Assembly (NCBI GenBank): GCA_003161435.1
Contig: PMOS01000031.1
Coordinates: forward strand, 214,970-278,969
Direction: 5' to 3'
Length of the DNA: 64,000 bases
Source: Vulcanimicrobiota bacterium
GTDB taxonomy: Bacteria; Vulcanimicrobiota; Vulcanimicrobiia; Vulcanimicrobiales; Vulcanimicrobiaceae
A program made the translations under genes and the position numbers. Under the pieces are notes generated by a model that ran no database searches, was not told where the DNA came from, and saw only the letters and a program-made list of their open reading frames with translations. This document shows positions 1,578 to 1,912 of the stretch, piece after piece (the first letter of the stretch is position 1; every line of letters begins with the position of its first letter).

Positions 1578-1783
1578 CCTGCGACCTGACGCTGCGCGAC
1601 GTGCGCTCCGTCGCCCGCATCGTCAACCTGGCGCACCGCTTCAACTGCCGCACCACGCAGATCGCGGTGCAGGCCGACACGACGGTGATCGCGCGCTTCG
1701 CCTTCGACGGTCCTGACGTCGCGCTGGGCCGCCTGCGCGCGCAAATCGACCGCATCATGTCGTACGAGGCGGACCTGACGTGA
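1574..1783 (+). CDS. short ACT-domain protein, probable acetolactate synthase regulatory subunit (IlvM-like)
   Basis: A 69-residue protein starting at GTG, four bases inside the end of ilvB. Its strand-helix-strand pattern ([19 protein letters not shown], then [10 protein letters not shown] and a C-terminal helix) fits a single ACT fold. The position directly after the catalytic subunit and the tight coupling argue for the small regulatory subunit. It is much shorter than IlvN/IlvH (about 160 residues) and shorter than E. coli IlvM (87), so it lacks the second domain. Whether it confers valine feedback cannot be read from the sequence. Its stop codon overlaps the start of the Leu-rich leader peptide. 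Confidence 0.7.
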
Positions 1784-1842
1784 TCGCGCCATCGCGCCGA
1801 CTTCGACTTCGACTTCGACTTCGCGTCATCTCACGCGTCTAA
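1780..1842 (+). CDS. leucine leader peptide of a leu attenuator
   Basis: A 20-codon frame opens with GTG (1780-1782), overlapping the stop of the ACT gene (1781-1783), and ends at TAA 1840-1842. It encodes MIAPSRR, then Leu-Arg four times, then VISRV. The four Leu codons are all CTT and alternate with CGA, built from four tandem copies of the hexamer CGACTT (1798-1821). CTT is uncommon in the surrounding genes, which use CTG/CTC. A Leu-rich short peptide 38 bases ahead of an intrinsic terminator and just before leuA is the arrangement of classical ribosome-stalling attenuators. Val and Ile codons follow the Leu run. I infer that low charged tRNA-Leu stalls the ribosome and lets transcription continue into leuACDB. 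Confidence 0.75.
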
Positions 1843-1879
1843 GCCGTTCTCGTCGTGCCCTCGCCACCTCGTGTCGCGA

Positions 1880-1912
1880 GCCGGTCTCTGCGAAGCGGAG
1901 GCCGGCTTTTTT
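1880..1912 (+). terminator. intrinsic terminator / attenuator hairpin upstream of leuA
   Basis: GCCGGTCTCTGC (1880-1891) pairs over 12 base pairs, including two G-U pairs, with GCGGAGGCCGGC (1895-1906) around a GAA loop, followed at once by six T residues (1907-1912). This is a textbook rho-independent terminator lying 13 bases before the leuA start and after a Leu-rich leader peptide, so it most likely acts as an attenuator rather than as the operon end. Confidence 0.8.

Follow-up and report, generated by a model that had tools for sequence, protein, structure and literature searches.

Leucine attenuators of the leuL type in proteobacteria consist of a short reading frame with leucine codons, alternative hairpins and an intrinsic terminator before leuA, and the leader peptide studied in the ilv operon of Staphylococcus aureus is reportedly encoded at the operon head. 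Leader frames with runs of isoleucine, valine and leucine codons or of leucine codons, located before ilvB, leuS or leuA, are described for Actinobacteria in the available part of one source, which presents the actinobacterial LEU element as a candidate pseudoknot that involves the leuA ribosome binding site (PMC1262725). In the pyr operon of Bacillus subtilis, attenuation takes place at three sites, one each before pyrR, pyrP and pyrB, according to the accessible portion of another (PMC7430163).

The element described here is located between ilvN and leuA of an ilv-leu operon in the Vulcanimicrobiaceae, on a stretch of 64,000 nucleotides of contig PMOS01000031.1 that was analysed as a whole (the window), and is very probably a leucine attenuator. 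Like the leuL leaders (RF00512), it has a frame with leucine codons, predicted alternative hairpins and a terminator before leuA, but it has no RF00512 match, lies inside the operon after ilvN, has no promoter of its own that could be seen, and begins with a start codon that overlaps the upstream stop codon.

The ilv-leu operon and its internal leader

The operon has the gene order ilvC-ilvB-ilvN-leuA-leuC-leuD-leuB. NCBIfam models identified ilvC, ilvB, leuA, leuD and leuB above cut-off, and leuC was identified by subfamily models. The 69-residue ilvN-like protein had no NCBIfam match at 1e-5 and a Pfam match at chance level (E 0.17). A 13-N scaffold gap is present between ilvC and ilvB, just before L027:4494; the window opens right after it, and the start of ilvB is missing. 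The features of the window are as follows:

24-1577, + strand: ilvB, acetolactate synthase large subunit, starting before the window (NCBIfam acolac_lg above cut-off)
1574-1783, + strand: ilvN-like small subunit, 69 amino acids, its stop overlapping the leader start (named by position and by an earlier ACT reading)
1766-1769, + strand: GAGG, possible ribosome binding site of the leader, with a 10-nt spacer
1780-1842, + strand: leader frame, its start in the GTGA overlap with the ilvN stop (sequence and comparison with G089)
1798-1823, + strand: (CGACTT)4.3 repeat coding Arg-Leu and holding the CTT codons (Tandem Repeats Finder)
1850-1893, + strand: predicted antiterminator, exclusive with the 5′ arm of the terminator (folding prediction, weak statistical support)
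1879-1912, + strand: intrinsic terminator with a stem of 12 bp (13 counting the A-U pair), the loop GAA and a run of six T (sequence, folding and our own scans)
1914-1917, + strand: GGAG directly behind the T run, likely ribosome binding site of leuA
1926-3647, + strand: leuA, 2-isopropylmalate synthase of the yeast/actinobacterial type (TIGR00970 and NF002991 above cut-off)
3628-4962, + strand: leuC (above cut-off with two subfamily models, below it with the leuC equivalog)
4959-5483, + strand: leuD (TIGR00171 above cut-off)
5480-6571, + strand: leuB (TIGR00169 above cut-off)

The leader frame has 20 codons, from GTG (1780-1782) to TAA (1840-1842), and the GTG shares bases with the TGA (1781-1783) that ends the ilvN frame. 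Four of the 20 codons are leucine codons, all of them CTT (at 1801, 1807, 1813 and 1819), and they lie in the CGACTT repeat of 4.3 copies with 100% matches; the 18-mer (CGACTT)3 occurs with zero mismatches only at the leader locus in the genome assembly, which is listed as 83% complete. The 142 nucleotides between the ilvN stop and leuA consist of the leader, whose first four bases overlap ilvN, a 37-nt spacer and the terminator. An earlier note on this DNA had claimed a GTG-started frame of 20 codons coupled to the end of an ACT gene, which is exact by sequence as regards the frame and its overlap, as well as four CTT codons in a CGACTT tandem repeat and a 12-bp stem with six T, both of which were borne out, and leuACDB downstream, for which the family models provide confirmation. 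Elsewhere in the window, at 61250-61309, there is an 18-bp tandem repeat, TCCGCCGCCGCCCGAAAA, with 3.3 copies and 95% matches.

The terminator and the predicted antiterminator

The terminator stem pairs GCCGGTCTCTGC (1880-1891) with GCGGAGGCCGGC (1895-1906) over 12 bp around the loop GAA and is followed by T at 1907-1912; an additional pair, A1879-U1907, lengthens the stem to 13. Folding and our own scans detected this terminator, and it was absent from the list of a consensus terminator scanner. Six terminator-like hairpins of at least 10 bp were found on both strands of the 64-kb window, and only the one at 1879-1912 has a leader with a leucine run; 20 random Markov-1 windows contained a mean of 3.6 such hairpins each and one leader case in total. 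Taken as a whole, 1760-1930 folds with no exceptional stability (z -0.89, with 46 of 200 shuffles as good).

When the RNA ends in the terminator loop, nucleotides 1850-1893 are predicted to form an antiterminator (-12.9 kcal/mol) that absorbs the 5′ arm of the terminator, and one of similar shape (-12.2 kcal/mol) is predicted at the corresponding site of a second species, G089. Spacers were shuffled 1000 times for comparison: 234 were as stable in the window and 13 in G089, while the expected number of pairs with the terminator arm was ordinary in both (286 and 246 of 1000, respectively). With the edge of the ribosome assumed to lie 13 nt past the A-site codon, the outer antiterminator stem of the window has a predicted mean pair probability of 0.83-0.87 when a ribosome is on the leucine codons and 0.0 when it is at the stop codon; the inner part persists at the stop codon (0.93-0.95), which leaves the predicted switch incomplete. 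For G089 the calculation favours the outer stem at the last two leucine codons alone (0.70 and 0.79), with 0.13-0.30 at the three earlier ones tested. The folding that the earlier note had put forward as a check thus gave a divided answer: both species are predicted to form an antiterminator, but in the window its energy is no better than that of shuffled sequences and its inner part is predicted not to give way. An antiterminator switch is plausible by these models; the element is known from two species, too few for a proper covariation test.

Conservation at the ilvN-leuA junction

LeuA of the window type was found in 20 of 99 genomes of the family, namely nine of the 11 genomes of the window's genus and 11 outside it. 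The junctions of the genus were scanned for two features, a frame with three leucines in eight codons and an 8-bp hairpin with a T run. Both were present in the window's genome (G000) and in G089, and neither in the other seven of the nine junctions. The G089 leader, MTPRALVLRLRLRRSLVLRD, also has 20 codons, six of them for leucine, and begins in an ATGA shared with the stop codon of ilvN; a spacer like that of the window and a terminator come after it. The G089 terminator has five T and keeps 11 of the 12 stem pairs, with one position gapped. The leader peptides differ at many positions, with the leucine codons and the choice of CTC and CTT kept; the GAGG of 1766-1769 is not kept as such. The comparison with relatives that the earlier note had asked for therefore came out in its favour, in that the relative that keeps the hairpin also keeps the coupled leucine-rich frame, and no terminator was found in the seven relatives that have no such frame. 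Conservation in G089, as read from sequence, is the strongest support for the element being real. The CGACTT repeat is shorter in G089 (CGACTTCGACTTCGACG) than the 4.3 units of the window, which fits slippage but also a point change, in a comparison of one genome per species; that slippage might tune the sensitivity of the leader, as the earlier note had suggested, would be a hypothesis.

In five relatives (G088, G092, G094, G095 and G096), the LeuA match begins at most 5 nt from the ilvN stop or overlaps it; the gap is 40 nt in G093 and 137 nt in G087. The G087 gap (L012) appeared by eye to be full of palindromic repeats of the CACGCTGAGC...GAAGCG type. G090 and G091, of the same genus, had no LeuA, IlvC or IlvE match at the thresholds used; G090 is listed as 95% complete, and a loss of branched-chain amino acid synthesis is possible in both.

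A covariance model built from the two internal sites (R2) scored 171 and 161 bits there and at most 27 bits elsewhere in the 99 genomes. At E ≤ 0.01 it matched nine of the 99, two of which are the training sites; one of the seven others was read (L199), and it has no leucine leader. At about 1389-1560 of L199 (G077 C2), a short methionine-rich frame (MRVRFMFAPGRTSMMWLMSRMCCHPARVVAQR, by eye) and a terminator precede a gene similar to homoserine dehydrogenase, possibly a methionine attenuator.

G000 and G089 were not grouped in a tree of IlvB and LeuA, in which a clade uniting them was rejected (AU p 0.0045), with deep-node support of just 57 and 77 (41 and 20 further in). Their separation suggests that the element was ancestral and was lost at least twice; the history that we prefer has the element arising once, at the base of the genus, and being lost two or more times, and gene exchange may be an alternative origin of the internal leader.

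A probable first gate at the operon head

All eight genomes of the genus with readable sequence before ilvC (that of G092 being unreadable) have TTGACA-N17/18-TACNAN, a leader of 24-26 codons rich in leucine and valine, and a terminator-like hairpin, the T run of which is weaker in G093, G094 and G096. The leader peptide of the window species is MSARLLVLVIGVLLAVPLNRRAAFA, encoded outside the window in L027, from about 130 bases before to 40 bases after position 3373 (G000 C20, ilvC). Among 20 ilvC loci read outside the genus, similar leaders were seen in G059 and G060 (g27) and G086 (g37), and in most others a small-subunit-like gene precedes ilvC.

Judging from their sequences, the operons of G000 and G089 carry two gates, one at the head that is rich in leucine and valine with one isoleucine, and an internal one with leucine only. 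The separate leucine/valine leader at the head implies that the internal leader would be a second, leucine-only, branch-specific gate. The promoter score before the internal leader is 7, the commonest value in 400 background windows, compared to 9-10 at the operon head, and no promoter-like site was seen before the internal leader. Its place after ilvN is not that of most attenuators, which lie in a 5′ untranslated leader behind a promoter, but this is a usual feature and not a mechanistic one. The overlap of the leader start with the ilvN stop indicates that ribosomes probably reach it from ilvN and, taken together with the lack of a promoter-like site, that its transcription also probably comes from upstream.

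Leucine leaders elsewhere in the family

Outside the genus, a leucine leader and a terminator lie directly before leuA in nine of ten readable genomes with the same LeuA type (G003 has no leader, and G098 was unreadable). These nine family leaders share TCCTTAGCG or TTCTTAGCG, an AGCG/CGCT helix and the terminator. They resemble the internal leader in that their leucine codons are mostly CTC and CTT and in their terminator and position directly before leuA, but they differ in having a CTTAGCG motif with the AGCG/CGCT helix and, in seven of the nine (G059 and G060 excepted), a TTGAC-type promoter-like site. In the two exceptions (L024 of G059 and L023 of G060) the leuA leader has no TTGAC site, and the L023 leader closely follows the end of an unrelated gene and may be read from upstream too.

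The covariance model of the family leaders (R1) gave only 7.5 bits (E 0.9) in the window and 17.2 bits (E 0.001) in G089, in both cases at the right place; a kinship is possible, distant at best. R1 matched 46 of the 99 family genomes at E ≤ 0.01, and ten new loci that were read comprised two leaders (G044 and G045) and eight that resemble terminators at gene ends, one of them in G000 (C19). In the phylum, 14 of 149 genomes matched at E ≤ 1e-5, all 14 in the family, and three of these (G000, G041 and G056) are false cases. Another LeuA type was found in eight of the 99 genomes at E ≤ 1e-70. Upstream of it, leucine-rich leaders are present in G044, G045 (these two related to the family leuA leaders) and G001; none was seen in G002 or G086, and G051 and G052 have a hairpin with no clear leucine leader. 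The eighth genome, G025, has the ilvE tail described below.

A search of 1500-2200 with the 4227 families of Rfam 15, including RF00512 and presumably the T-box, at E up to 10 returned one chance-level match, inside leuA. There was no match at gathering score at nine family loci (seven with a family leuA leader, those other than L023 and L024) or at five head and ilvE-tail loci; the nearest relevant match, to RF00512 (Leu_leader), covers the head terminator and the ilvC start of L027 and scores 23.8 bits, where the cut-off is 50.

A second internal form was found in genus g7. The operon of G025 has the order ilvB-N-C-D-E-leuA (ilvE confirmed by NCBIfam, the rest by eye), with the Leu/Val/Ile leader MFAHNLVLVVVILISRSATDRYGLATA at its head and no separate leader before leuA. 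Instead, ilvE itself ends in codons for WLSLSGTLLST, with CTTAGCCTTAGCGGCACG, and a terminator comes next, immediately in front of leuA (L194:6872-7840); R1 matches this tail at 17.5 bits. G024 has the same ilvE tail up to the contig end (L195). Only these two among 19 IlvE loci compared end in this way, additional C-terminal residues as such being common. The tail (...HEQWLSLSGTLLST) carries the family motif CTTAGCGG. It looks like an attenuator leader that was merged into an enzyme gene.

Codon choice

The leucine codons CTC and CTT are read by one tRNA, with the anticodon GAG. In 42 open reading frames of the window, chosen by length and GC pattern, CTT accounts for 100 of 1690 leucine codons, and CTT and CTC together for 820. 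By comparison, CTT makes up six of ten leucine codons in the two internal leaders (CTT and CTC, ten of ten), and 25 of 42 in eight head leaders (39 of 42); for the nine leuA leaders of the family the figure is 12 of 34 (30 of 34). Related leaders are not independent and the other species were measured against window usage; still, all three groups of leaders lean to CTC and CTT. The available excerpt of one source takes up the codons used in the leu leader and argues that attenuator leaders favour codons whose tRNA loses its charge first, not simply rare ones (PMC1183508).

Proposed mechanism and alternatives

We have good confidence that the element is a ribosome-mediated, leucine-responsive transcription attenuator inside ilvC-ilvB-ilvN-leuACDB, serving as a second gate after the head leader. 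The earlier note had proposed a leucine attenuator within the ilv-leu operon, and this is supported by the conservation in G089 and by the joint presence or absence of frame and terminator. Transcription would begin before ilvC, where the first leader (leucine, valine and one isoleucine) would gate the whole operon, and RNA polymerase would pass ilvB and ilvN before reaching the second, leucine-only gate. A ribosome ending ilvN would re-initiate at the overlapping GTG and translate the Arg-Leu repeat. With ample leucyl-tRNA, it would proceed to the stop codon and cover the 5′ part of the antiterminator (from about 1850 on), allowing the terminator at 1879-1912 to form and preventing transcription of leuACDB. 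If leucyl-tRNA(GAG) were short, the ribosome would stall at CTT, the antiterminator at 1850-1893 would form, and polymerase would enter leuA. Each CTT is preceded by CGA, and stalling could depend on arginyl-tRNA too. Closing the gate would shut leucine synthesis and leave isoleucine and valine synthesis on, so that leucine synthesis is probably switched off alone while the related amino acids are still made.

The element might instead be a terminator of fixed, partial strength whose only role is to adjust how much leu enzyme is made relative to ilv enzyme, the leucine codons being incidental low-complexity sequence. The terminator is a strong one, the structural evidence favours a switch only weakly, and seven of the nine genomes of the genus live without the element, all of which would suit such a device. 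It is nevertheless improbable, given that a coupled frame of 20 codons, six of them for leucine, is kept in G089 with its leucine codons and CTC/CTT choice despite the divergence of the peptide, that leucine leaders precede leuA across the family, and that frame and terminator were gained or lost together.

Very unlikely is a translational switch, in which stalling in the leader alters leuA translation or mRNA stability, as in the actinobacterial LEU element, and the hairpin is mainly structure. The six T of the window and the five T of G089 behind the hairpin are the hallmark of an intrinsic terminator, and the GGAG of leuA lies outside the hairpin, even though leuA starts only 13 nt past the T run and the LeuA match of five leaderless relatives at or within 5 nt of the ilvN stop suggests that coupling matters here. 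Least probable of all is a pacing device, in which the CGA-CTT repeat, through a dual effect of arginine and leucine codons or through rare codons, slows ribosomes generally and the gate reports translation capacity rather than leucine. CGA accounts for 107 of 1296 arginine codons in the window reading frames and CTT for its 100 of 1690 leucine codons, and CGACTTCGACTTCGA is kept in G089; yet the G089 leader uses CTC, which is a common codon, for four of its six leucines, and the leucine runs of the family leuA leaders have no arginine inside.

Since the pathways of isoleucine, valine and leucine have enzymes in common, an operon that serves all three must be able to close the leucine branch alone, and no regulator protein would be required for this if a second attenuator, responding to leucine only, lay between ilvN and leuA. 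More tentatively, in a conjecture that may well be too broad, the element can be seen as a branch-point attenuator: the ribosome of ilvN would be handed over at GTGA or ATGA, no promoter or pausing hairpin would be needed, and the operon would be split into a general and a leucine-only part, in a lineage that built such gates more than once, in g7 from codons of ilvE (HEQWLSLSGTLLST). If this is true, attenuation can operate on ribosomes delivered by an upstream gene and not by a dedicated 5′ leader, in a place that surveys of 5′ leaders miss. The internal leader in two of nine species, the direct ilvN-leuA junction in five and the other internal form in g7 would constitute a natural series for the gain, merger and loss of attenuators as operons fuse.

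Comparison with known systems

Leaders of ilv genes and leucine leaders in front of leuA are familiar, including from the available part of the actinobacterial work (PMC1262725). The actinobacterial leaders have a leucine-run frame before leuA as the window does, but in that part of the source they are described upstream of genes or operons, whereas the one in the window is internal (PMC1262725). In S. aureus, a leucine-rich attenuator peptide likewise controls branched-chain amino acid synthesis, but the accessible portion of the source does not mention an internal second gate (PMC5794164). The pyr operon of B. subtilis is similar in having several attenuators in one biosynthetic operon, some of them between genes; it differs in that, as far as the excerpt of the source goes, the protein PyrR and not a translating ribosome is responsible and the three mechanisms are described as identical (PMC7430163).

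Among at least 80 loci listed for leuA of other bacteria, 78 had enough upstream sequence, of which 31 showed a leucine-run frame and eight also a terminator-like hairpin, by a loose rule with no chance control; eight upstream sequences were read. In a Polaromonas locus (L099), ilvB-ilvH-ilvC and a pssA-like gene are followed, by eye, by a promoter-like stretch and then by a leucine leader and terminator that precede leuA. The layout of that locus means that the window's family is not alone in having a leucine attenuator placed between the ilv genes and leuA of one cluster. No report of a translation-coupled leucine attenuator within an operon was seen in a search of the open-licence literature of PubMed Central. 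What seems to be new is a leucine-only second gate with no visible promoter and with its frame coupled to the upstream stop codon, together with its counterpart in the ilvE tail.
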